Assembly (NCBI RefSeq): GCF_005844085.1
Contig: NZ_VCDI01000008.1
Location: 1 to 64,000 of the forward strand
Source: Lichenicoccus roseus
GTDB taxonomy: Bacteria > Pseudomonadota > Alphaproteobacteria > Acetobacterales > Acetobacteraceae
DNA: 64,000 nt
Reading direction: 5' to 3'
Shown here piece by piece: positions 1,747 through 43,236 of the stretch (position 1 is the first letter of the stretch; each line of letters opens with the position of its first letter). Both the position numbers and the translations under genes were made by a program. The notes under the pieces were generated by a model. The model searched no databases. It was given only the letters and a program-made list of their open reading frames with translations, and was not told where the DNA came from.

Positions 1747-3072
1747 ATGATCGGCCCGATCCTGGCGCGGCGCGATGCCGCAGGCTTCTGGCTTGCGGTC
1801 GTGTTGACTGGCATTTGCACTGGACTTGGAGCCGCGGCGCTAACCGCATTGCTCGAACTGGTGCAGCACGCGCTCTGGGGCGGCAACGGTGTCGATCTGC
1901 TCGATGGAGCAACACAATCCGCTGGTTGGTGGCACATCCTGGTGCTGCTCGGCGCCGGCCTGCTGACCGGCATCGGTCAGCTGCTGCTGGTCCGGCTTTC
2001 AGCAGCCAACAGTATCGATATCACTGCGGCAATCTGGTTCCAGGCCGGGCGTCTGCCGATGGTGCGGACGCTCGGCAGTGCCGTGCTCTCGGTGCTGGTC
2101 GTCGGCATGGGAGCGTCGCTCGGTCGGGAGGGTGCGCCGAAACAGACTGGTGCGGTGCTTGCCAACCTGATGTCCAACCGGGTTCAGCTCACCGACGAGC
2201 AGCGCCGGCTGCTGGTCGCGTGCGGCGCCGGGGCCGGGATGGCAGCGGCCTACGGCGTGCCGCTTGGCGGCGCGCTGTTCGCACTAGAGGTGCTTCGCGG
2301 CGAGCTGGCGCTGCGCTTCGTGCTGCCGGCCCTACTGACCTCGCTGACCGCCACCGGCGTGTCCTGGGCCTTCCTGCCCGACGCCCCGACATATCACATT
2401 CCGTCCTATCCCAGTTCGCTGAGCTGCGCTCTCTGGGCTGTCCTGGCCGCTCCGATCATCGGCGTGGCGTCGGTTGGCTACGTCCGAGCGGTCGCGTGGG
2501 CCGATCATCACAGGCCGACGGGGACCTGGCGGCTGGTGGCGCCGGCCGTGGCGCTGACAATGCTAGGTATAGTCTCGATCCCCTTCCCGCAGCTGCTCGG
2601 CAACGGCCGAGACATCGCGCAACTCGCCTTCACCGGTCAGGTCGCGCCGCTGCTGCTGGTGGCGCTGGTCGCCTTGAAGCCGGCAGCGACCTTGCTTTGC
2701 CTGGGCAGCGGCACGCCGGGTGGGTTGTTCACGCCCTCTCTGGCAACCGGGGCACTGCTTGGCGGGGTGCTTGGCCTACCCTGGATGCATCTATGGCCGG
2801 GCGTCCCGGGCGGGCTGTTCGCCGTGCTAGGCGCCGGTGCCTTGCTGGCAGCCACTACCCAGGGGCCGTTATCGACCATCGTGCTGATGGTCGAGCTAAC
2901 CGGCCACGCGCGTGCGGCCATCGTGCCGATGCTGCTGATTGTCATGATCGCAACTTTGGTGGCACGCACCATCGAACCGCGCTCGATCTATGATGCGCGC
3001 CTGAGCGACGCCGAGGTGAAAAGACGCCAGCGCCAGCGTGAGGCCGTCTCCGATGGAGGCGCTGGCGCGTGA
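1747..3072 (+). CDS. ClC-family chloride/anion channel or antiporter
   Basis: The 441-residue hydrophobic protein carries the ClC signatures: GREGAPKQTGA, with the gating glutamate in the GxEGP-type turn, and GGLFTPSLATGALLG near the end. No CBS domains follow, so it is a short bacterial form. The first ClC selectivity motif, GSGIP, is not recognisable and is replaced around SAANSID. The gene lies 15 bases after the sulfite oxidase-like gene, and a close paralogue at 34638 follows a remnant of the same enzyme. This suggests a paired role, perhaps handling sulfite, sulfate or chloride, but the transported ion cannot be read from the sequence. Confidence 0.9.
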   Translation: MIGPILARRDAAGFWLAVVLTGICTGLGAAALTALLELVQHALWGGNGVDLLDGATQSAGWWHILVLLGAGLLTGIGQLLLVRLSAANSIDITAAIWFQAGRLPMVRTLGSAVLSVLVVGMGASLGREGAPKQTGAVLANLMSNRVQLTDEQRRLLVACGAGAGMAAAYGVPLGGALFALEVLRGELALRFVLPALLTSLTATGVSWAFLPDAPTYHIPSYPSSLSCALWAVLAAPIIGVASVGYVRAVAWADHHRPTGTWRLVAPAVALTMLGIVSIPFPQLLGNGRDIAQLAFTGQVAPLLLVALVALKPAATLLCLGSGTPGGLFTPSLATGALLGGVLGLPWMHLWPGVPGGLFAVLGAGALLAATTQGPLSTIVLMVELTGHARAAIVPMLLIVMIATLVARTIEPRSIYDARLSDAEVKRRQRQREAVSDGGAGA

Positions 3073-3966: not shown

Positions 3967-4030
3967 CGCTTTGTATCACGCCTCAGACCTAGGGTCGCCT
4001 ATTGCCGTCCTGCCAAACAGCTTGCCGACA

Positions 4031-6018: not shown

Positions 6019-7788
6019 TCACCAGACGATCCACCCTGGGGCGTGCGTTAGGTGGTGCACGAAAGGCCACAGGATCGGAATGTACGCGGCCGCTGTGACC
6101 ACCGCCGTCCCCAGCGTGATGAGCCCGACATGCTCCAGCGTCCGGGCAAGTGGTGACAGTGCCGGATGCGCCACGATGCCGACGGGCGTGGTCTCGTCGG
6201 TCAGCGGCAGATCGATCGCGTAGCTCTCGCGGCCGCCGAAGGCCCGGGCGAACGGGATCGGCTCACGGTACGTCCCGCGGCTGCCGAACAGGATGGTGCC
6301 GAAGAACACGACGTAGAAGCAGAAAGTCGCCAGCCAGAGAACGACGCCGCCGATCGCCACCAGGGCCAGCGGCACATGGGCCATGCCATACAGAGTGTGA
6401 TACTCCGACGGCGGCAGGGCGGAGATCCAGGCACGACGGGGTACGCCGAACAGCCCGGCCCAGTGCATGCCGAGCGCGAAGATCGACATGCCGGCGAACC
6501 AGAGCCAGACCGAGGCGAGAGCAAGCCGCCGGCTGATCAGCGAGCGGCCGGTCAGATGCGGCACCATCCAGAACGACACCGCCATGAAGGTCATCGCCGT
6601 GACGCTGCCGACCGTGACATGGAAATGGCCGGGAATGAAAATCGTATTGTGAACGATGTTGTCGAGCTGCCAGCTCCCCTGCACCACGCCGGTGGCGCCC
6701 CCGAAGATGAAGGTGATGGCGGCGAGAACTTGGCCGGCGACGCCCGGGTTGCTCCAGGGCAACGCGCGGAACCAGCCGAACCAGCCCTTGCCGCCACGGA
6801 CGCGGCCAGCGAATTCCAGGCTCAGACCGATGGTGAAGGCGGTGATCAGGCTCGGCAGCGCCACCGACATCGTCAGCGCGACCAGGATGCCACGCCAGAT
6901 CGGCGAGAAGCCGGGATCGTCGAACTGATGGTGACTGCCGACCGGGAGCGAGAACACGAACAGCAGCACGAAGGTGAGGCGCGCCATCGGGTCCGACACC
7001 AGCTTGCCACCAGCCTGTCGCGACAGCAGGCCGTACCAGGAGACATAGGCCGGCATTAGCCAGAAATAGACGATCGGATGGCCGGTCAGCCAGAACAGCG
7101 TACGGCCGATGATCGGGTCGACCGTGCTGGTGAAGCCGAGTGCCCAAGGATCGAGCTGCAGCAGCAGTTCCGCCACCGCGCCGATGCTGGCCAGGCCCCA
7201 CATCAGCATGGTCACCAGGCTCATGTAGGTGACGAGCGGCGTCAATTCGCCACGCCGACGATGTTTCCAGGTGGCTCGCATCTCCAGCAGGATCGGCAGA
7301 GGCACTATGCTGCCGATGCTGAGCAAGGTCATGCCAAGATAGAACACCGCGCTTGCCTGGAGCGGCGGATAGAAGGTCCAGAGCACGCTCGAGGAGTTGT
7401 CGAACATCGACCAGAGCAGCATCAGCGCGCCGGCCGCCATCAGCACGAAGCCGCTGCGCCACAGCAGTAGATTCGGATGCAGCCCAAGCTCGCGTGCCGG
7501 TAGATAGACCAGCAGCCCACTGGTTATGAAGAAGGTGAAGACGTAGCCATTTAGCACGCCGTGGATGGTCAATCCCTGGTAGTAGCTTTTCAGCACCGGA
7601 TGCAGCGCCGGGTAGGCATTGATGCCACCATAGTTCAGCGCCTGCAGTGGGCCGATCGAGGCGCCGATCATCAGGGCCGTGAAGCCCGCGATCAGGAACG
7701 CCAGCATCCAGCGGCGCTCTGTTGCCGCCAAAGCACCTTCGTCAAGCCGGGCTGCTGAAAATTGCGTCGTCTTGAGGACGGCGCTCAT
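6019..7788 (-). CDS. Cytochrome c oxidase subunit I, ba3 (B) type
   Basis: The 589-residue protein has 12 or more membrane segments and all haem-copper oxidase ligands. These are LTIHGVLN for the low-spin haem, GHPIVYFWL for CuB with the cross-linked tyrosine, the HH pair in GSHHQFDDPG and the paired histidines in PGHFHVTVGS. HPIVY instead of HPEVY and the overall length point to the B (ba3) class, which works at low oxygen. The start used here is the ATG at 7788, whose ATGA overlaps the subunit II stop; an upstream in-frame extension is only the shadow of subunit II. It reduces oxygen to water in the inner membrane. Confidence 0.93.
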   Translation of the reverse strand: MSAVLKTTQFSAARLDEGALAATERRWMLAFLIAGFTALMIGASIGPLQALNYGGINAYPALHPVLKSYYQGLTIHGVLNGYVFTFFITSGLLVYLPARELGLHPNLLLWRSGFVLMAAGALMLLWSMFDNSSSVLWTFYPPLQASAVFYLGMTLLSIGSIVPLPILLEMRATWKHRRRGELTPLVTYMSLVTMLMWGLASIGAVAELLLQLDPWALGFTSTVDPIIGRTLFWLTGHPIVYFWLMPAYVSWYGLLSRQAGGKLVSDPMARLTFVLLFVFSLPVGSHHQFDDPGFSPIWRGILVALTMSVALPSLITAFTIGLSLEFAGRVRGGKGWFGWFRALPWSNPGVAGQVLAAITFIFGGATGVVQGSWQLDNIVHNTIFIPGHFHVTVGSVTAMTFMAVSFWMVPHLTGRSLISRRLALASVWLWFAGMSIFALGMHWAGLFGVPRRAWISALPPSEYHTLYGMAHVPLALVAIGGVVLWLATFCFYVVFFGTILFGSRGTYREPIPFARAFGGRESYAIDLPLTDETTPVGIVAHPALSPLARTLEHVGLITLGTAVVTAAAYIPILWPFVHHLTHAPGWIVW

Positions 7789-12119: not shown

Positions 12120-13349
12120 TCAGCCCGAGAAGCCGCCGGCAGACAGGAAAGATGCCTCATCCGCGGTTGTTTCCCGTCCAAGGAGGGCATTGCGATGCGG
12201 GAAGCGCCCGAACCGCCGGATGATGTCGACATGCACGGCCGCATGGCGTTCCAGCGCCGGGCCGAGTTTCCGCCGTAGCCGCAATGACAGCTCCTGGTCC
12301 ACCAGATCCTCCGAATGCGTGAACGGAAGATAGAAGAACAGACGCAGATCGGGGGGCAGCCTCTGGTCGAATCCCAGACGCAGGAAGCCATGCGCAAGCC
12401 GCAGCGCCAGGGCGTCGGTCGCCAACATGTGCGCGGTGTCGCGGAAGACGTTGCGCGGGAACTGGTCGAGCAGGATCAGCAGGGCCAGCGCGCCGCGCGC
12501 CGTCCCGGCCCAGCCATCGAGATCACGGCGCGCCGCCGCCTGGTGCAATGGCAGGAAATCGTTGCGGAAGCTGTCGTCGAAAACCGGGTCCTTGGCGAAC
12601 CACCCGTCCAGCCCCGCCTCGGCCCAGAAGGCGATCAGCCGCTCCTGCCAGATGTCGGGACCCGCCGCCGTGGACGAAGCCAGCAGGGCCTCGACCTCGC
12701 GCGCCGTGCCGTCCTGCCTGGGGCGCAGCACGAGGGCGTAGTGGTAAGGCGGCAGTTCGACCAGCCGCTCCGTCTCCAGACCGGCGGACGCGGCGGCGTG
12801 ATGCAGCTCGCAGGGAGTCATGCGCAGGTCGAAGCAAGGGCCGCGCGGCTGGCCGAGCACGATCGTCCCTTCCCTCGGCCAGTGATGCCAGTTGACGACA
12901 AAGATCCGGCCTCGTGCGGTCAGGTTGGCCGCGATCGCCCGCAACAAAGCTGCGCGATCAGACGCGCCGTGAAGCGTATTGGCCAGCAGCACCAGATCCG
13001 CCCGCCCACCCAGCTTGGGAGACACATCGAGAGCATCGCCGGCTACGAAGCGGCAGCCGGGGACCGCCTCCCTCTGCGCCCGCGCCGCCGCCATGGCGAG
13101 CAGCGGCCGATCAAGGTCCACGCCCACCGTCTCGTCGGCCATGCGGGCGAGTGCGGGAGTGAACCAGCCATCGCCGCAGCACAGATCGACTGCAAGACGT
13201 CCCGGACGAACCCCAAGCCGCCGCAGCGTCAGGTCCGGATCCGGCCATAGCGTGTGCCACCAGCGGCCGTCCGGCATGGCGGTGCCGGGAAACCGACCCT
13301 CCTCGCCTGCTGCAGCCCCTCCAGGCAGTTCCAAGGGAGCTATTGCCAT
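12120..13349 (-). CDS. Fusion: SAM-dependent methyltransferase + DUF924
   Basis: The first about 200 residues form a class I methyltransferase with the SAM-binding loop VDLCCGDGWF and the acidic VGVDLD strand. From about residue 215 the protein is a complete DUF924 domain (FRNDFLPLHQAAA, LILLDQFPRNVFR, FFYLPFTHSEDL, RRFGRFPHRNALLGR). DUF924 is normally a free-standing protein of about 180-200 residues and unknown function. The ATG at 13349 has AAGGA nine bases upstream and overlaps the barrel-protein stop by ten bases; an ATG at 13373 is possible. There is no gap or stop between the two halves. Confidence 0.85.
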   Translation of the reverse strand: MAIAPLELPGGAAAGEEGRFPGTAMPDGRWWHTLWPDPDLTLRRLGVRPGRLAVDLCCGDGWFTPALARMADETVGVDLDRPLLAMAAARAQREAVPGCRFVAGDALDVSPKLGGRADLVLLANTLHGASDRAALLRAIAANLTARGRIFVVNWHHWPREGTIVLGQPRGPCFDLRMTPCELHHAAASAGLETERLVELPPYHYALVLRPRQDGTAREVEALLASSTAAGPDIWQERLIAFWAEAGLDGWFAKDPVFDDSFRNDFLPLHQAAARRDLDGWAGTARGALALLILLDQFPRNVFRDTAHMLATDALALRLAHGFLRLGFDQRLPPDLRLFFYLPFTHSEDLVDQELSLRLRRKLGPALERHAAVHVDIIRRFGRFPHRNALLGRETTADEASFLSAGGFSG

Positions 13350-14158
13350 GGCAGGGCGTCCTTGATCGTCCATTTGATTCCGGCGAACACGCGGACAGCC
13401 GCCGCATCCTGCGCAAGGCCTGGCCCCAGGCCAGCACTCAGCGTGAGCGACCGGCCGACGATCCGGTTGAAGCCGACATCGAGATAGTCGGACTCGTGCC
13501 CGCGCCGATTCTGCTGCTGGTAGACCAGGTCGGCGACCAGGGCGGTCCGCCGGTCCAGCAGGCGAGACCAGACGATCCCGGCCAGCCAGCGTCCATGTCG
13601 CTCATCGGTCGCGGCCCCCACCGTGTGGGTCCAGGCGACCTCTACGCCTAAACGCGGCGCCTCTCGTCTACCGCCAAGAGACTTGGTCGCGACGCCCTGG
13701 ACCGCATAGTGCGGCCCCTGGTGACCGCCGCCATAAGGCTCATCGCGTATCAGCGCCAACAGGAAGGCGGGAATGTGGCGAGACTGCTGGTTGAGGTTCC
13801 ATTCCAGCTCGGCTCCGGCCAGGTTGCCATGCACGCTCGATGCGTCACCGAGCTGGCGGAACGGCGCCAGGCTCAGCTCGATACGCCCCGGCAGGCCGAA
13901 CTTGAGCGCTGGGCCGCCACGCAGGCTGTAGCGGCCATCATCCTCGATCGTTGTGCGGCTGCCGTACTGCAACGTCACAGCCCCGGGATCGGTGACGAAT
14001 GCGTCCTTCAGCCGCACCGGTAGGTTGGTGCTGAGCGCCTGCGGGTCGGCCTGCGCCTGCGCCGCCCCAGGTTGGAGTAAGAAGCAGACATAGACCGAAC
14101 CTACCCATGCCACCGGGAAGTTGATCAGATAAGAAGCAGAAGCCCTTATCCTGTTCAC
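13340..14158 (-). CDS. Putative outer-membrane beta-barrel protein
   Basis: The 272-residue protein has a signal peptide ending near GAAQAQA. After it come alternating amphipathic strands with glycine turns (TLQYGSRTTIEDDGRYSL, LSLAPFRQLGD, LDVGFNRIVGRSL) and a final strand, FAGIKWTI. This is typical of MetA-pathway/phenol-type transporter barrels. It overlaps the transporter gene upstream by four bases and the methyltransferase gene downstream. A porin role for the sulfur substrates of this operon is possible but not shown. Confidence 0.6.
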   Translation of the reverse strand: MNRIRASASYLINFPVAWVGSVYVCFLLQPGAAQAQADPQALSTNLPVRLKDAFVTDPGAVTLQYGSRTTIEDDGRYSLRGGPALKFGLPGRIELSLAPFRQLGDASSVHGNLAGAELEWNLNQQSRHIPAFLLALIRDEPYGGGHQGPHYAVQGVATKSLGGRREAPRLGVEVAWTHTVGAATDERHGRWLAGIVWSRLLDRRTALVADLVYQQQNRRGHESDYLDVGFNRIVGRSLTLSAGLGPGLAQDAAAVRVFAGIKWTIKDALPWQ

Positions 14159-15339
14159 GCGACATCAGCTTCAGCAAGCAGGTCATTGCCGATAGGTGCG
14201 ACGTTGCTCATCAGGCAGGGCGCGAAAAACAGGTCGCCACGCCAGGCACCGAGGATGGTGCGGGAGAAGACGATGCCCCAGAGCAGGACCAGCAGTCCGA
14301 CGAGAGCGATGCCGACATCTGCGAGGGAGGCGAGATGGGTCTGTCTCGCGAGGGCCAGGGTCGCAACTGCGTAGACGCCCAGCGGGAAGGTGAAGCCCCA
14401 CCAGCCGATATTGAACGGCATGCCGTCACGCAGGTAGCGGGCTGTCACCATCATCGCCAACACCAGCCACCAGACGCCGTAACCCCACAACACGGTTCCG
14501 CCAATGACCCCAATGCCCTGCGCCACGATGCCGATTGCGGGCAATCCGACGGCAGCAAACGTCGATGGCGCATCCTGCCCGAGCAGCAGCAGGCCCAGCG
14601 CGCCGGTGCCGATCGGGCCGAGCGCCAGCCAGCCGGATGCCGCCATGTCCTTGTGCGGCAGCTTGTGCAGGATCAGTCGCAGCACCAGCACCACCAAGAT
14701 GCTCAAAGCCAGCGGCACGGAGAACGCCCAGAGCGCGTAGCCCAGCACTAGCATTCTCAGCGCGGCCTGCGGATCGACCAAATGTGGGACTAGCTGCGCG
14801 GCACTGGCCGCGGCCACCTCCGCTGCGACCACCGGCAACAGCCAGACAGCGGTCATCTTCTCAATCGAATGCTCCTGGCTGGTGAACATCAGGAATGGAA
14901 TGCAGAGTCCGGAGCCCACCGACAGGCCGGCGTCGAGCCACCAGAGGCCATGGGCGATCGGAACGGCGGCATCCCCGAACACCGCCGGGCCAAAAGCCAG
15001 GAAACCATTGATGATCGTCGCCAGGCCCATCGGGATAGCGCCAAGGAACATCGACATCACTGAATGGCGGAAAATCCGGCGTGCGCCGTCGAAAAAGAAC
15101 ACCCAGCGCGCTGTGTACAGGATGCTGAACAAGACAAAAAGAACGATGTCGAAGAGCCAGAGGCCACTTGCCACGGCCCGCACGCCGGGCAGCGCAACGG
15201 GCAGCTGGTTCAGCGCCAGCGCAAGAATCCCCGTACCCATGGTCGCCGTGAACCAGTTCGGCGTAAACTGGCGAACCAGCTCGCGCGAAGCCGTCAGGCG
15301 GCTGAGTGGTCGAGGGAATGACCGCGGAGATAGTGCCAT
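14155..15339 (-). CDS. TDT-family transporter (TehA/SSU1/Mae1 type)
   Basis: The 394-residue membrane protein has about ten helices. It begins with FTPNWFTATMGTGILALALNQLP, the conserved TDT opening, and contains INGFLAFGPA and FNIGWWGFTFPLGVY. The family includes the yeast sulfite pump SSU1, malate transporters and TehA. Among thiosulfate-oxidation genes, sulfite export is the most attractive role, but dicarboxylate transport cannot be excluded. The start is the ATG at 15339, with GGAGAAG upstream. Confidence 0.88.
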   Translation of the reverse strand: MALSPRSFPRPLSRLTASRELVRQFTPNWFTATMGTGILALALNQLPVALPGVRAVASGLWLFDIVLFVLFSILYTARWVFFFDGARRIFRHSVMSMFLGAIPMGLATIINGFLAFGPAVFGDAAVPIAHGLWWLDAGLSVGSGLCIPFLMFTSQEHSIEKMTAVWLLPVVAAEVAAASAAQLVPHLVDPQAALRMLVLGYALWAFSVPLALSILVVLVLRLILHKLPHKDMAASGWLALGPIGTGALGLLLLGQDAPSTFAAVGLPAIGIVAQGIGVIGGTVLWGYGVWWLVLAMMVTARYLRDGMPFNIGWWGFTFPLGVYAVATLALARQTHLASLADVGIALVGLLVLLWGIVFSRTILGAWRGDLFFAPCLMSNVAPIGNDLLAEADVA

Positions 15340-15560
15340 AACGCTTGTTCTTCTCCGATGCGAGAGCCAAGCCACATCCCGGTCTCGCCGTCGATAGTGC
15401 GACCGGCGACGCGTCCAGCAACGGCCAAGCTGCCGCTCTAGCCCGAACCCGCCTGACTGCATACTTCCCGCGGCTCAACACGCAACCAAACGTTGCGGCC
15501 CCTAGTGCGACAGGTCGCACCTGCAGAAGATCAGCCACGCAGCGGTTCGGGCGAGGCGGT

Positions 15561-15788: not shown

Positions 15789-16064
15789 CGGTTATCTCCA
15801 TTGATCTAAGGCTCGATTCCCGGGAGTAGATCCGCCGGCGCCAGAGGGCGGCATTGGCTGCTACCGAAGTTTCGTTGACACCAAAGTTACGAGGCCACGG
15901 TCAATCAGAAAAGACTTGCTTTGAGAACCATTCGATCGAATCAGTCGATCGTTTGAGGCAGATGATCCGAGGTGGTGCGGGCGGTCTACCGTGCCCAGTC
16001 AGTGCAGCGCTTCTAGTCAATTGACCGGTTGAGAAGTTTCTCGCGTCATGCGAGGTAGAGTCCC
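15789..16064. other. Divergent intergenic region
   Basis: This stretch separates the minus-strand sulfur run from the plus-strand fluoride locus and must hold promoters for both. I see no gene. Just before the riboswitch there are A/T-rich stretches but no confident -35/-10 pair. Confidence 0.4.
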
Positions 16065-16115
16065 AGGGAATGGGGTTTCCCTTTAACCGCCCGTCGTGGG
16101 CTGATGACTCCTGCC
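16065..16115 (+). ncRNA. Fluoride riboswitch (crcB motif)
   Basis: The sequence follows the crcB RNA plan. A first stem pairs GGGAA (16066-16070) with TTCCC (16077-16081), and its loop TGGGGT is available for the pseudoknot. A TTTAAC linker leads to a second stem, GCCC (16089-16092) with GGGC (16098-16101), then the near-invariant CTGATGACTCCT. The loop GGGGT (72-76) can pair with ACTCC (107-111), which is the family pseudoknot that encloses the fluoride ion. It lies 100 bases before a crcB-type gene in the same direction, as expected. Confidence 0.92.
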
Positions 16116-16143
16116 GATCGGACATGAAGTCCGCGGGAGGAGT
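16107..16143 (+). promoter_or_regulatory. Riboswitch expression platform sequestering a ribosome site
   Basis: ACTCCT (16107-16112), part of the riboswitch pseudoknot, is the exact complement of AGGAGT (16138-16143), which overlaps a strong GGAGGAG ribosome site. Without fluoride, ACTCCT can pair with and hide that site. With fluoride it is held in the pseudoknot and the site is freed. The site lies seven bases before the ATG of a short leader ORF. No run of T that would make an intrinsic terminator is seen, so translational control is favoured. Confidence 0.7.
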
Positions 16144-16149
16144 GTGTTC

Positions 16150-16218
16150 ATGGTCCTGAAGCCATCTACGCGATGCCTGGTCAGTCATGACCCCGTCCAG
16201 GTCACTTTCGCATGCTGA
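16150..16218 (+). CDS. 22-codon leader ORF coupled to the crcB fusion gene
   Basis: An ATG at 16150 follows the riboswitch-controlled GGAGGAG by seven bases and opens a 22-residue frame ([14 protein letters not shown]...) that stops at TGA 16216-16218. The crcB start ATG lies at 16212-16214, inside the last codons of the leader (ATGCTGA). The crcB gene has only a weak ribosome site of its own, so ribosomes finishing the leader would re-start on it. Whether the peptide has any function is unknown. Confidence 0.6.
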
Positions 16219-17447
16219 ACTATTTCCTGATTGCGGTCGGCGGCGCGATCGGCAGCGTCCTGCGCGCCTGGATCGGGTCCCTCATGGTCGCGCTGACAGG
16301 GCCTGCCTTCCCCTGGGGGACGATCCTTATCAACATCGTCGGCTCGTTCGTGATCGGTTTCTTTGGAACGTTGACGGCAACTGATGGTCGTTTCGCGGTG
16401 CCATTCGATATACGGGCCTTTGTGATGGTCGGAATCTGTGGCGGCTTCACCACCTTTTCCTCTTTCAGCCTGCAGACGCTTGAGCTGGCCCGCGATGGCC
16501 GTACCGGTCAGGCGCTCGGCAATATCGTGCTCTCGGTGGTGCTTTGCCTTGGGAGCGTAGCGGCTGCCTACTCGTTGGCGCTCCTCCTTCGTACTTCGCG
16601 ACTGGGGGCAATCAGCGACGCGGCACCGGGGACGATGAGTAGCAGCACCTTGGTGGCGCTGCATCGTCCGGAGAGCGTCTCGAACATGCTCGCGGTTGCA
16701 GATCAGCTCATGGCAGTCGAGGGCGGGCAAACGATCGCACTCGCCATAGATGGACCCGTTCTGGCCGATCTGCAGCTGACCGAGGAGGTGCAGACAAAAG
16801 AACGCCGCCGGGCCGTGTCCGAGCAGCGGCGCGACTGGGTCAAAGCGATGCGCAGTACACTCGACGGCTGGGTCTCGGGGGAGCGGGCCAAAGGACGCAG
16901 CGCGCGGTGGATCGAGGTGCATGGCGACGGAACACTTGCGGTCGCCGAGCATGGCCGTAGTGCTCACCTGCTGCTTCTGGAACAGAAGCCCGGTGACAGG
17001 GCGGCTCGGGAACGGGTCCACGAAGCTCTGGTCCGCTCCGGACGCCCGATACTTCTGCTCCCGGCGAGTACGGTGGCACCCATCGGATGCTGCATGGCCA
17101 TTGCGTGGGAGGGTGGCGTCCATGACCGCAAGGTCGTCCGGACGGTTGCGCCCCTCCTATCGAAGGCCAAGCGGGTTGTGGTGCTCCAGATCGGGGACGC
17201 CGCCGAGGTTATGGGTCTGGAGGATGTTCTTGGCGGCATGCCATTCGAAGTGGTGACAGCACCCTCCCAGCCGGACAGCGAGGTGGGTGCGAAATTGGTG
17301 GAAATGGCACACGAAGCCGGCGCGGATCTGCTCGTCATGGGCAGCTACAGCCACGGCAGCCTCCGGGAGCAGCTCTTCGACGGTGCCACGGAAGGGGTGC
17401 TGCGCAGCGCCGATCTTCCTGTCCTCATGCAGCATCAGGACGCCTGA
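16212..17447 (+). CDS. crcB: Fusion: CrcB/FluC fluoride channel + universal stress protein
   Basis: Residues 1-128 are a complete FluC fluoride channel: four helices with [11 protein letters not shown], the conserved asparagine N41 in LINIVGSF and FTTFSSF (79-85), which carries the pore phenylalanines. Residues about 145-411 form a UspA-type double domain ending in [26 protein letters not shown] and a PVLMQH tail, with the glycine-rich nucleotide loop. There is no stop or frameshift between the parts. FluC normally stands alone at about 125 residues and works as a dual-topology dimer. The C-terminal domain could report nucleotide or stress state to the channel. Confidence 0.88.
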
Positions 17448-17448
17448 A

Positions 17449-18263
17449 ATGGATCATATCGCGTGCATTCTAAACGATTCTGCAACGGCTCGATCCGTGC
17501 TGCAGACAGGAGCTCTGCTTTCCCTCAAATACGGATGTAGCCGGGCGCGCATTCTACATCCGAGACCCGGCTGCGATCCGAGCTTCATGCCGACTGAGGA
17601 GGTAATGACCGACGACCGGCGCAAGCGGTTTGCCCACTACCAGGACACTCAGTCAGCCGAACTCAGCCGCATCTTCCAGGCTTGGAAATCAGATAACGGC
17701 AGTGCACTGGTCTTTGAATAAGTTGAAGGTATTGTAGCCGACATCGTAACTCTGGCAGCCCGCGAGGCACGACTAGTCGTGGCCGGCGCCGCGGAGGGCC
17801 TGAACCAACCACGGCGGCCGCAACGATTCAGACAGTGCTGGTAGAACGCACTAGCGCGATCGTCGTGGTTCCGGTGGAACCACCTCGGACGATCGGCGCC
17901 CGCCCCGCAGTCGCCTGGAAGGCTGGCGTCCAGCTCGATGCGGCGATCGATCAGGCTCTGAAGCTTCTTCTAATGGCGGAACAGGTACACGTGCTGCTCG
18001 AGGCACAACAAGCCCGGGATGACGTAAAGCTACAGGATCTGCTAACGACCCTGCGGCGGAACGGCGTTCCCATCGAACTCCATCATGTTGAGCTCGGTGG
18101 TCGTCATGCTGGAGAGCTCCTGGTTCAAGCGGCGTATAAAGCAGGTTGCGATTTGCTGGTGATGGGAGCCCACACGCAATCTTGGTTCAGCGACCTTCTC
18201 ATCGGCGGAACGTCGAAGGATGTTCTCGCTCACCTTGACCTTCCGGTTCTTCTGCATGGCTAG
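17449..18263 (+). pseudogene. Universal stress protein gene broken by a stop and a frameshift
   Basis: The ATG lies one base after the crcB-usp stop. The first 90 codons read as the front half of a Usp protein (MDHIACILNDSATARSVLQ...) and stop at TAA 17719-17721. Usp-like residues continue beyond the stop in the same frame (VADIVTLAAREARLVVAG) until about 17820. There the frame shifts and the second half (QTVLVERTSAIVVVPVE to DLLVMGAHTQSW, ending in PVLLHG) continues to 18263. The intact gene would encode a double-domain Usp of about 270 residues. A more decayed copy of its second half is found at 33.9 kb. Confidence 0.75.
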
Positions 18264-34637: not shown

Positions 34638-35945
34638 TTGGTGATCCCCCCGATCCTGGCCCGGCGCGACGCCGCCGGCTTCTGGCTGACGGTCCTCCTC
34701 ACAGGGATCGGCACTGGCCTCGGCGCCTCGGCGCTGACCGAACTCCTGGAGCTGGTGCAGCACACTCTGTGGTCGGGAAACGGGATCGACCTGCTGCAGG
34801 CGGCATGCCGCGCTGCCGCCTGGAAGCACCTCGTGATCCTGCTCGGGGCTGGGCTGCTGACCGGCGCCGGGCAGCTATTGGTGGTCCGGCTATCCGCCGC
34901 CAACAGCATCGATATCACCGCCGCGATCTGGTTCCATGCCGGGCGCCTGCCGACGCTGCGGACGCTCGGCAGCGCCATGCTGTCCATCCTGGTCGTCGGC
35001 ATGGGCGCATCGCTTGGCCGCGAGGGTGCGCCCAAGCAGACCGGCGCGGTCATCGCCAATGTAATGTCCGACCGGGTGCGGCTTTCCGACGAGCAACGCC
35101 GGCTGCTGGTGGCGTGCGGCTCAGGCGCCGGCATGGCGGCAGCCTATGGCGTGCCGCTCGGGGGCGCCCTGTTCGCGCTGGAGGTGCTGCGCGGCGAACG
35201 GGCGCTGCGCTTCGTACTGCCGGCGCTGCTGACCTCGCTGATCGCAACCGGGGTCTCCTGGGCATTCCTGCCCAATGCGCCCACCTACCTCATCCCGCCC
35301 TACACAGGCACGCTGGGCAGCATGGTCTGGGCGCTGTTGGCCGGTCCGATCATCGGCCTCGCCTCGGTCGGTTATGTCCGCGCGGTTGCCTGGGTAGATC
35401 ATCACCGACCAAGCGGACCGAGGCGGCTGGCAGCATCCGCAATCACCCTGACCCTGCTCGGGGCGATCTCGATCGTGTTTCCACAACTACTCGGCAACGG
35501 TCGCGACATCGCGCAACTCGCCTTCACCGGCCAAGTGGCGCCGCTGCTTTTGCTGTCGCTGCTGCTGCTGAAGCCGGCTGCTACACTCCTCTGTCTCGGC
35601 AGCGGCACGCCCGGCGGCCTGTTCACCCCATCGCTGGCGATCGGCGCGCTACTTGGCGGCTTGCTGGGCGTTCCGTTCGCCCATGCCTGGCCGGGGACCG
35701 CGCCGGGCCTGTTCGCAGTGCTTGGCGCCACCGCCCTGCTAGCCGCGACCACGCAGGGTCCACTCTCGGCAACCGTGCTGATGATGGAGCTGACCGGACA
35801 GGCCCGCGCATTCATCGTGCCGATGCTGCTCATCGTGGCACTAGCGACACTCATCGCACGTACTATTGAGCCGCGCTCGATCTACGATGCGCGGCTCAGC
35901 GATGCCGAGGTCCTCAAGCGCCAGCGTCAACGCGATCCGGTATAA
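34638..35945 (+). CDS. ClC-family chloride/anion channel or antiporter (second copy)
   Basis: The 435-residue protein is a close paralogue of the one at 1747, alignable end to end with the same motifs (LGREGAPKQTGA, GGLFTPSLAIGALLGG, ARTIEPRSIYDARLSDAEV) and scattered synonymous differences. It is translated from TTG 34638 or GTG 34641. It is free of lesions although its partner enzyme upstream has been gutted, so the channel has kept value on its own, or the deletion is recent. Confidence 0.9.
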   Translation: MVIPPILARRDAAGFWLTVLLTGIGTGLGASALTELLELVQHTLWSGNGIDLLQAACRAAAWKHLVILLGAGLLTGAGQLLVVRLSAANSIDITAAIWFHAGRLPTLRTLGSAMLSILVVGMGASLGREGAPKQTGAVIANVMSDRVRLSDEQRRLLVACGSGAGMAAAYGVPLGGALFALEVLRGERALRFVLPALLTSLIATGVSWAFLPNAPTYLIPPYTGTLGSMVWALLAGPIIGLASVGYVRAVAWVDHHRPSGPRRLAASAITLTLLGAISIVFPQLLGNGRDIAQLAFTGQVAPLLLLSLLLLKPAATLLCLGSGTPGGLFTPSLAIGALLGGLLGVPFAHAWPGTAPGLFAVLGATALLAATTQGPLSATVLMMELTGQARAFIVPMLLIVALATLIARTIEPRSIYDARLSDAEVLKRQRQRDPV

Positions 35946-38064: not shown

Positions 38065-38430
38065 CGAGTTCCTATCGTGAGTAGTTGAAGAAGCGTTTTC
38101 TGTTTCGGTCGGAGCGGGCAGGATGTCGCGGCGGATGCTCGCGGGCCGAGGCCGTCCAGGCGGATCAGCGAAGCTGTCCGGCGCCAGTCGGGGCTGCCCA
38201 AACACGCCGACTGCGATCTCTCGCGGTATTTGGCTGGGTTTGATGATCATGGCTCGATGAGCCGGCCTTGGATGCAGGCAAAGGAAACCGCAAGGAGGTC
38301 GCGCTGTGCTCGAGGAGCGCCCGCGAACCATTTTGGTTCAGGTGCTATCTGGTTCAGTCATAAAAATTCTCGGATCGAACACGGACGCAGGACAGCCGAG
38401 CGACGGCAACCAGGTCTTACGTGCTTATGA

Positions 38431-38479
38431 TCCAGCGGATTGGCGGCTGGAATAGCCACCCGGGATTGCACCGGGTCCG
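38431..38479 (-). repeat. 49-bp hairpin-forming repeat, left copy
   Basis: Read on the minus strand, this 49-mer matches 42821-42869 at about 42 of 49 positions and lies in opposite orientation, so the two copies bracket the arsenic operon. Each copy can form two hairpins: CCCGG/CCGGG with a seven-base loop, and CCAGC/GCTGG here versus CCGGC/GCCGG in the other copy. The second stem shows paired changes. It may be a REP-like element or an end of a mobile unit. Confidence 0.7.
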
Positions 38480-38529
38480 GTCGAAGGGACTTACCGGCAC
38501 CTTGCTCAAGAAAGCAACCCCGAGGGATG

Positions 38530-40043: not shown

Positions 40044-41339
40044 ATGCTTGCTCTGCTCATCTTCCTGGCCACCCTCGTGCTCGTCATCTGGCAGCCGCGC
40101 GGCCTCGGCATTGGCTGGAGCGCCGTGGGCGGTGCGGTGCTCGCCTTACTGACCGGAGTGATCGGCTGGGGTGACGTCCCCGTGGTCTGGCATATCGTGT
40201 GGGACGCGACCTTCACCTTCGTGGCACTGATCGTGATCTCGCTGCTGCTGGACGAGGCGGGCTTCTTTCAGTGGGCCGCGTTGCACGTCGCCCGATGGGG
40301 CGGCGGAAGCGGGCGACGGCTTTTGCCGCTCGTCGTGGTGCTTGGCGCGGTCATCGCCGCCTTCTTCGCCAATGACGGGGCGGCGCTGCTGCTGACCCCG
40401 ATCGTGGTAGGGATCCTGCTACGGCTCGACTTCTCACCCGCGGCGACGCTGGCTTTCGTGGTGGCGACCGGCTTCGTGGCCGATACGACCAGCTTGCCGC
40501 TGATCATTTCCAACTTGGTCAACATCGTCTCGGCAAACTTCTTCGATGTCAGCTTCGACCGCTACGCAGCGGTGATGGTGCCGGTCGACCTCGTCTCGCT
40601 TGCCGCGACGCTGACCGTGTTGTGGTTCGCCTACCGGCGCGTGGTGCCGGTCCACTATCACATGGCTCAGCTCGAAGCGCCGGCGAGTGCCATCCACGAT
40701 CGGCTGATCTTCCGGGCCGCCTTTCCATTATTGGTCCTGCTATTGGTCGCCTACTTCGTGCTGGCGCCGCTCGGCGTGCCGGTGTCAGTGGTGACCGGCG
40801 CCGCCGCGTTCGTGCTTCTAGGGATGGCGCTGCGCGGCCGGGTCGTGCCGGTGGGCAAGGTGCTGCGCGGGGCACCGTGGCAGATCGTGGTGTTCAGCCT
40901 GGGCATGTACCTTGTGGTCTACGGTCTGCGCAACGCCGGCCTGTCCAATCATTTGGCGGGTGCGCTGATCTGGTTGGCCGGGCAGGGGCCGTGGGTCGCG
41001 ACGATCGGCACCGGCTTCGGCGCCGCGCTGCTCTCCTCGGTGATGAACAACATGCCAGGCGTGCTGGCCGGCGCACTCTCCATCGAGGCAGCCCGCGGCA
41101 TTCCGGCCGCAACGCGTGAGCTGATGATCTATGCCAACGTTATTGGTTGCGATCTCGGTCCGAAATTCACGCCCATCGGCAGCCTGGCGACGCTGCTCTG
41201 GCTGCATGTGCTGGGGACCAAGGGCATCCGCATTGGTTGGGGTCAGTACATGCGCGTTGGTCTCGCCATCACCCCGCCCGTGCTGCTGGTGGTGCTTGCC
41301 GCCCTGGCGCTCTGGCTACCGCTGCTGGGGCCGGAATGA
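40044..41339 (+). CDS. arsB: Arsenite efflux transporter ArsB
   Basis: The 431-residue protein has about 12 helices, with [15 protein letters not shown] and [15 protein letters not shown], the paired ArsB/NhaD signatures, and [24 protein letters not shown]. It exports arsenite, driven by proton motive force or by an ArsA not seen here. It starts 89 bases after arsC and overlaps arsH by four bases. Confidence 0.94.
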
Positions 41340-42480: not shown

Positions 42481-43236
42481 GATCAACGGCAAGCAACTAA
42501 GCCTTTCAAGCTCGATGACCACGCCACGGTGGCTCAGCTCCCTCCGCGACCACCCCCGAATAAGGGTGGGCCAAGTCATGGCTTCTGCCGAATAATAATC
42601 CAAGCTATGATCCGTCTTTCCTCTTGGTAAACTACTAAATCATTCGCAATCCGAAAGTTGTCACTATGCCTTGATGGTTTATTTACGAGTTGAGCCATTC
42701 TGACTACTAGTCTAGTTCGCTTGTTAGAATAGAAGTTCTGTGAAGCTTTGGCTCGCTAAGCTGTGACATAAAAGACTATTGCTTGGCGTTTTTCTTTGGA
42801 CTACACAAGGGACGATATCCCGGACCCGGTGTGAACCCGGGTGGCTCTTCCGGCCGCCGATCCGCCGGACAACGCATATGACACGACCAAAAGACCGCTC
42901 CTATCTGCGTCTTTTTCGTGCGTTTTTGCGGATTCACAATTTACATGGCGAGCATCACCGACTTCCGGCAATGGCTGGGGGTTTCAGGGACCGGAACTCC
43001 GAGCAGTCTTGTTCTGGTCGTTAGGGCTGTATCGTCGGCCATTCCGTCCGTGACCCCATGTGCCGGAGCGCGTCCTGTAACGCGGCCAACCGCGGTTTCT
43101 GCCGTCGTAATCCTCATTCCAGATCGAGAGCCACCCTAGTTTTATCCTAGCGATGAGGCTTGCCTCTCCAACTAAAGCCAGTCTGACACGTGCGCACACG
43201 GTTCCTTTCCCGATGCGCTTAATAACTCGGTGCCAA
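42481..43236. other. Non-coding, A/T-richer stretch between ars cassette and flippase
   Basis: I see no gene here. Composition drops in GC around 42600-42800. The right copy of the 49-bp repeat lies at 42821-42869. The last part before the flippase has short frames with no recognisable similarity. Confidence 0.5.
42821..42869 (+). repeat. 49-bp hairpin-forming repeat, right copy
   Basis: This is the partner of 38431-38479 in inverted orientation. Stem 1 is CCCGG/CCGGG and stem 2 is CCGGC/GCCGG. Stem 2 differs from the left copy on both sides in a way that keeps pairing. The two copies enclose the whole arsenic operon plus the MFS fragment, a span of 4.4 kb. Confidence 0.7.

Follow-up and report, generated by a model that had tools for sequence, protein, structure and literature searches.

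The window, meaning the whole stretch of DNA analysed here (bases 1-64000 of contig C25, which has 171,697 bases, in a genome of 4.79 Mb), carries on its forward strand a gene in which a complete FluC (CrcB) channel is continued, in one reading frame, by two universal stress protein (Usp) domains. It is preceded by a fluoride riboswitch and followed directly by the remains of another tandem-Usp gene. The features of the locus are:

16057..16120, + strand, fluoride riboswitch aptamer (crcB RNA motif, RF01734; cmscan)
16107..16143, + strand, inferred expression platform (from the fold of 16104-16160)
16150..16218, + strand, possible leader ORF of 22 codons with a good Shine-Dalgarno site, its stop overlapping the FluC ATG (ATGCTGA)
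16212..17447, + strand, FluC-Usp fusion gene, 411 aa, ATG start
16212..16595, + strand, FluC/CrcB channel domain with four TM helices, residues 1-128 (Pfam, NCBIfam and fold match)
16596..16631, + strand, linker, residues 129-140 (one short helix, lower model confidence)
16632..17444, + strand, tandem Usp domain, residues 141-411 (fold match; second Usp with a degenerate nucleotide loop)
17449..18263, + strand, decayed second tandem-Usp gene

The fusion gene and its leader RNA

The fusion frame runs through 411 codons without an internal stop. Its first part matched the Pfam family CRCB (PF02537) at residues 6-118 with 91.2 bits (cut-off 32.9) and the NCBIfam CrcB models NF010802 and TIGR00494 with 157.7 and 91.1 (cut-offs 140 and 80.45), while Pfam Usp (PF00582) matched residues 357-406, in the second Usp half, with 30.6 bits (cut-off 24). 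The first Usp half had no Pfam match at E<=1 but is present according to its predicted fold. An AlphaFold2 model built from an alignment of 61 rows had a mean pLDDT of 90.3 and a pTM of 0.85, with a mean pLDDT of 59 in the linker block 131-140. Its channel helices span residues 2-29, 35-54, 65-79 with 82-94 (a broken TM3) and 98-127, and residues 1-128 superposed on Fluc-Bpe (5nkq) with Z 18.9 and an rmsd of 1.1 over 122 residues at 31% identity. Residues 144-408 matched the tandem Usp TTHA0350 (3ab8) with Z 22.6 and an rmsd of 3.9 over 245 residues, and residues 142/144-411 aligned to tandem Usps at Z 18.5-22.6. The first-pass annotation, made from the sequence alone, had described a complete FluC followed by a double Usp, and this description stands. 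A frame error between residues 128 and 145, or a fault of assembly, was considered and rejected, as no stop interrupts the linker or the fusion in other, independent assemblies, among them a complete Lichenicola plasmid; compared with the latter, linker residues 125-143 gave a dN/dS of 0.15, over only 19 codons.

The TM3 signature of Fluc channels has been given as GxxGGxTTFSTFxxE (PMC3755343), and the corresponding 15 residues of the fusion keep eight of the ten fixed letters, with T replaced by S and E by Q. Across 14 aligned fusions the invariant positions of the FluC part include R18, N41, G74, G77, G78, T80, T81, F82, S83, F85 and S108. As no part of the domain is missing and its signature positions do not vary among the aligned fusions, it probably forms a working channel.

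The riboswitch match, covering model positions 1-64, scored 59.4 bits (E 6e-14), where the gathering score is 34. The six-pair pseudoknot, with two G-U pairs, between GGGGUU (16072-16077) and GACUCC (16106-16111) was assigned by eye only. The element had been recognised in the first-pass annotation, which placed its start at 16065, eight bases inside the covariance match. The pseudoknot strand may also act in the expression platform: ACUCCU (16107-16112) can pair with the Shine-Dalgarno sequence AGGAGU (16138-16143), and as the same bases take part in both pairings, ligand binding should free the Shine-Dalgarno site. The fold of 16104-16160 had an energy of -23.2 kcal/mol (z -2.48), equalled by 5 of 200 shuffled sequences, and at L009, L020 and L157 (the Lichenicola locus), too, ACTCCT stands ahead of an AGGAG or GGGAG site. 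The ATGCTGA overlap suggests that the putative leader ORF is translationally coupled to fluC. The 22-codon layout is shared by L009 and, by eye, by L157, and L020 has an 11-codon version; the peptide is not conserved, a script found no leader ORF at L022, L023, L027 or L030, and since some 20 codons without a stop are not rare, the leader ORF is treated as a lead only.

In a scan of 15 fusion loci (the window, L009, L010 and L020-L031, with L078 outside the scan), RF01734 reached its cut-off at nine: the window, L009, L020, L022, L023, L027, L028, L030 and L031. At L028 the riboswitch lies 1.1 kb upstream of the fusion with other reading frames intervening, and the interval (432-1500) contains a membrane-protein-like ORF of 254 codons. 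The motif was not found at L010, L021, L024, L025, L026 and L029, even at E up to 10. The Lichenicola plasmid locus likewise has a fluoride riboswitch.

Two further genes lie upstream of the riboswitch on the opposite strand. One, at 14155-15462 (-), specifies a SLAC1-type anion channel, and the other, at 12120-13373 (-), combines a methyltransferase domain and DUF924 in one frame.

Recurrence of the fusion and its separate-gene counterparts

The fusion is recurrent. The family sample comprised 200 genomes of the Acetobacteraceae, the genome of the window included, 173 of which had a CRCB match; the tree labels place Roseomonas in the Roseomonadaceae, so the family name depends on the taxonomy used. 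FluC sites were read in 97 of these genomes, covering every listed site with an open frame of at least 270 aa and including G110, where FluC runs off the contig end. FluC and Usp occurred in a single frame in at least 15 of the 200 genomes (at least 15 of the 173 with a CRCB match), namely G000, G131, G180, G057, G181, G074, G022, G025, G001, G002, G048, G132, G145, G041 and G177, a lower bound because matches were available only as listed and some frames are short at contig ends. All but three of the fusions read have an open tail of about 230-300 codons; the exceptions are G001, which keeps one Usp, G145, where the fusion stops at the contig edge, and G177, which has a frame break inside the Usp part. 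Two more fusions were found beyond the sample, in MAG L009 and on the complete plasmid NZ_CP053712.1 of Lichenicola cladoniae. The latter is 77% identical to the window fusion over its whole length, and its record annotates only crcB, so that in this case the tail goes unnoticed in automatic annotation. In samples of the class (385 genomes) and of the phylum (398 genomes), the matches listed included no fusion outside the family; these samples overlap each other and hold some family genomes, and for most genomes four candidates were scored, so absence outside the family is not proven.

A tree of the FluC part (128 rows, 125 columns, bootstrap not settled) requires seven changes of the fusion label, which may be gains or losses, at least four of them forced by well-supported branches, and the idea that the fusion arose as one single event is not supported. 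Nineteen duplicate loci were dropped before the tree, charge and loop counts.

Separate, same-strand usp genes were found beside fluC in 14 of the 97 genomes, downstream in G113, G136, G055, G150, G012, G087, G067, G023 and G186 and upstream in G122, G183, G060, G073 and G037, many of the 97 having been picked for Usp hits or long frames. Among 39 genomes picked without that criterion (long frames having been removed beforehand, and G522, of another family, set aside) the two genes were separate neighbours in three and fused in none. Pfam Usp matches numbered 1 to 8 per genome in the six genomes counted, and Pfam misses some members of the Usp subfamily concerned; some of the neighbours may be due to chance. 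Outside the family, fluC-usp neighbours were seen in G522, in the fluC-usp-fluC arrangements of L016 and L017, and on three plasmids, as crcB-usp-eno in Methylocella tundrae, crcB-usp in Sphingomonas paeninsulae and crcB-crcB-usp in Gordonia sp. KTR9. The fluoride riboswitch reached its cut-off at the separate-gene loci L016, L017, L037, L089, L127, L132, L158 (Gordonia) and L159 (Methylocella), and at L150, where the matches of G783 to fluC and usp abut; it did not reach the cut-off at L032, L035, L081, L088, L090, L091, L092, L095, L107, L108, L145, L151 and L160 (Sphingomonas). At L016 (4806-6649) and L017 (4319-5941) the whole cluster lies behind the riboswitch and its two FluCs are opposite in charge bias. 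On the Methylocella plasmid (L159, 2551-5682) riboswitch, crcB, usp and the enolase gene stand in a row; enolase is a fluoride-inhibited enzyme (PMC5533749).

A comparable arrangement has been reported. The fluoride-riboswitch operon of Enterobacter cloacae FRM consists of ppaC, uspA, eno, gpmA, crcB and orf5249 (PMC5533749), and resembles the present locus in that a fluoride riboswitch controls both crcB and a usp gene; it differs in having separate genes and further fluoride-sensitive enzymes, and the accessible part of that report does not mention a fusion. Mutants lacking uspA, crcB or both all had a fluoride MIC of 3,000 mg/L, whereas growth of the wild type was reported at 4,000 mg/L (PMC5533749), so any effect of Usp may be small. 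Given this operon and the separate neighbours described above, the FluC-Usp fusion is a joined form of an already known type of neighbourhood. The first-pass annotation knew of no earlier account of a fluoride channel gated by, or sensing, ATP or AMP through such a domain. No FluC-Usp fusion was found in the literature searched, which excluded most subscription journals, but the association of Usp with fluoride was in part known from E. cloacae.

The tail: selection, nucleotide loop and topology

The reading favoured here, at a probability of roughly 0.55, is that the gene specifies a channel, induced by fluoride, with a stress effector or stabiliser tethered to it, and not an ATP- or AMP-driven gate. 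Three other readings bear on the same observations, and concern in turn the conservation of the tail, its nucleotide loop and its orientation.

The Usp tail is under purifying selection. Against Lichenicola (dS about 1), FluC had a dN/dS of 0.07 and each Usp half one of 0.17; in more distant pairs, where dS is rough, the values were 0.14 to 0.31 for FluC and 0.21 to 0.75 for Usp. The tail nevertheless evolves much faster than the channel, with 4 invariant columns over 14 aligned fusions, compared with 35 in FluC. The gene behind the fusion followed another course: this second usp is interrupted in the window by an in-frame TAA (17719-17721) and, near 17802-17808, by a shift of frame, is intact in Lichenicola (271 aa, WP_171835218.1; L157 11232-12047), and in L009 is mostly gone, leaving a short relic at 6295-6396. 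These data bear on the possibility that loss of the fluC stop simply joined two operon genes, and that the resulting Usp tail has little effect and is being lost slowly. Fast Usp evolution, loop loss, the truncation in G001 and the frame break in G177 would all fit a dispensable tail, and to that extent count against the favoured reading. So would the stand-alone FluCs that are the nearest tree neighbours of some fusions (L036 with L010, L038 with L031), which indicate that the tail comes and goes. Such a passive fusion is nevertheless unlikely, given the low dN/dS of both Usp halves against Lichenicola, the long tail kept open in nearly all fusions read, and the contrast, in the window, between the open fused Usp and the decayed usp gene next to it.

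ATP-binding Usps of the MJ0577 type carry the loop motif G-2x-G-9x-G(S/T). In the second Usp half of the window fusion the corresponding stretch of 14 residues, G377 to position 390, does not conform to it, the third glycine being lost, and no G-2x-G-9x-G loop was found in an alignment reading of the first half. The third glycine is missing from 9 of 16 readable fusions (the window, L009, L020, L021, L025, L026, L029 and Lichenicola, together with L027, which lacks the whole second Usp) and is kept in L010, L022, L023, L024, L028, L030 and the frame-broken L078, whereas 26 of the 27 separate Usps with a readable stretch retain it, the one exception being the relic behind the L009 fusion. These are hand counts of rows that are not independent (about three lineages), leaving out L031, which ends before the loop, and L034, on the same contig as L010; a Fisher test rests on earlier hand-typed counts (8 of 14 fusions against 0 of 26 separate Usps) that predate the addition of Lichenicola, L078 and the L009 relic. 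The second glycine is replaced in most separate Usps too, so the loop was already loose across the subfamily.

The first-pass annotation had proposed gating or sensing by ATP or AMP, for which the degenerate loop leaves no support. In a broader form, in which opening and closing of the FluC pore would depend on a nucleotide or some other small ligand bound by the cytosolic tail, a gate is quite unlikely. The tandem Usp fold itself and the glycine kept in 7 of the 16 fusions are in its favour, as is the resemblance of the tail to the C-terminal domains of the KCC and NKCC cation-chloride cotransporters and of a prokaryotic relative (7aio, Z 13.6; 3g40, Z 12.1). The tandem Usp-like tails of these cotransporters are thought to regulate transport, and it is this likeness that keeps a gate under consideration. 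Against it stand the degenerate loops, the lack of a loop in the first Usp and of a second Usp in G001, the use of Usp as a separate protein by relatives, and the description of Fluc channels as constitutively open (PMC3755343). More probable than an ATP-controlled gate is a tethered helper in the response to fluoride stress, both because the loop is degenerate and because relatives keep Usp as a separate protein; in addition, the part of the E. cloacae operon study available to us is silent on gating (PMC5533749).

The two subunits of a Fluc channel dimer are antiparallel (PMC3755343); one fluC gene serves both orientations, while paired genes, considerably rarer in Gram-negatives, give fixed inward and outward subunits (PMC11139923). 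Of 14 genomes with the fusion, 11 have no other CRCB match, as do 7 of the 10 that are well assembled, and G177, read later, also has one match; further matches occur in G022, G002 and the genome of the window, whose second FluC is a stand-alone protein (C12:141472-141873). A sole match in an antiparallel family suggests that both orientations are needed, and if so the fusion would not be single-sided where it is alone. Lysines and arginines on either side of the membrane were counted for 128 FluCs with loop limits set by hand. With tails, 16 fusion rows had a mean bias of +1.5 (-1 to +4, the +4 being L026 alone) and the other 112 a mean of +0.83; without tails the means were -0.5 (-2 to +1) and -0.17, and as the rows are related, p values of these comparisons are not to be trusted. 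The excess in fusions stems from the linker, the first 10 residues after TM4 holding 1.75 K/R in the 16 fusions and 0.96 in 50 other FluCs with tails of at least 10 residues. Likely fixed pairs showed biases of +6/-3 (L082), +4/-2 (L083), +5/-2 (L133), +5/-2 (L016) and +4/-1 (L017); without tails their C-in members fell at 0 to +4, with L083 at 0, so touching the range of the fusions. The linker excess, L026 and the L083 core make the charge test a weak one. Even so, with roughly balanced core charges, as in stand-alone homologues, and a sole CRCB match in most genomes, the suggestion in the first-pass annotation that the fusion forces a single topology is unlikely to hold.

It is also rather improbable that the fusion inserts with its C terminus inside only and pairs with a separate C-out FluC encoded elsewhere: the stand-alone FluC of the window genome, the K/R-rich linkers and the existence of likely opposite pairs are consistent with this, but most fusion genomes offer no partner, C-in pair members reach +4 to +6 with their tails, matched among fusions by L026 alone, and fusion cores lie near those of other FluCs.

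The pairs themselves merit mention. L082, L083 and L133, from the same family as the window genome, are tandem fluC genes with opposite K/R bias that probably form fixed-topology heterodimers.

A proposed tethered stress effector on the channel

On the favoured reading, that of a channel with a tethered effector or stabiliser, fluoride entering the cell would bind the aptamer, as its strong family match implies, and the pseudoknot strand, if the predicted fold is correct, would then be unable to cover the Shine-Dalgarno site. The leader ORF and the overlapping fluC start would be translated, giving a FluC channel with a C-terminal tandem Usp tail in fixed ratio to it. The gene most likely originated in a fluoride-stress operon in which fluC and usp lay side by side and became joined, and the tail would act at the membrane as a stress effector or stabiliser. 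The channel should remain an antiparallel dimer, in which case one tail of each dimer would be cytosolic and the other outside or removed; an outside tail, as dual topology predicts, is awkward for this explanation, and the six of 15 fusion loci at which no riboswitch was found also count against it.

Comparison with known systems places each half of the protein in familiar company. Fluc-Bpe (5nkq) and Fluc-Ec2 (5a43) share the four-helix fold and the conserved TM3 signature, but solved Fluc chains have about 123-147 residues, and the fusion adds about 270 residues of tandem Usp after TM4. The tandem Usps TTHA0350 (3ab8), Archaeoglobus 3loq and Rv2623 (3cis) resemble the tail in that a single chain holds two Usp folds (Z 20.4-22.6), but have no channel attached; the structure of TTHA0350 contains ATPs, according to its title, whereas the glycine loops of the fusion tail are degenerate or absent. 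Among membrane proteins, the C-terminal domains of cation-chloride cotransporters (3g40, 7aio) are likewise tandem and Usp-like by fold, although no paper describing them as Usp-like was found in the literature searched, and KdpD also contains a Usp domain; the membrane parts of both differ from FluC. To our knowledge, neither the cotransporter tails nor the Usp domain of KdpD have any link to fluoride. The KdpD domain binds c-di-AMP (PMC4686210, PMC8214093).

A usp gene was thus already known in one fluoride-riboswitch operon, with no clear job; the natural fusion links Usp to the channel itself and is a simple subject for tests. With it comes a topological puzzle, that of a dual-topology channel bearing a large folded tail and often being the sole FluC of its genome. 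One improbable solution is a regulated channel, in which the single cytosolic tail of an antiparallel, one-gene dimer senses a signal, maybe not a nucleotide, and sets fluoride export, the outer tail being cut or serving outside. If true, an otherwise always-open channel family would have been made controllable and asymmetric.

Elsewhere in the window are two CLC-family genes, 1747-3072 and 34638-35945 (both +), alike by eye. They are not claimed as fluoride antiporters, since ClcA-type chains outscored CLC-F for both (110 against 58 bits, and 109 against 56). ClcA carries the sequence GSGIP, and in the gene at 1747-3072 (+) a different stretch is aligned at that position. Two sul1 RNA motifs, at 42819-42874 (+) and 38426-38481 (-), flank an ArsB gene at 40044-41339.
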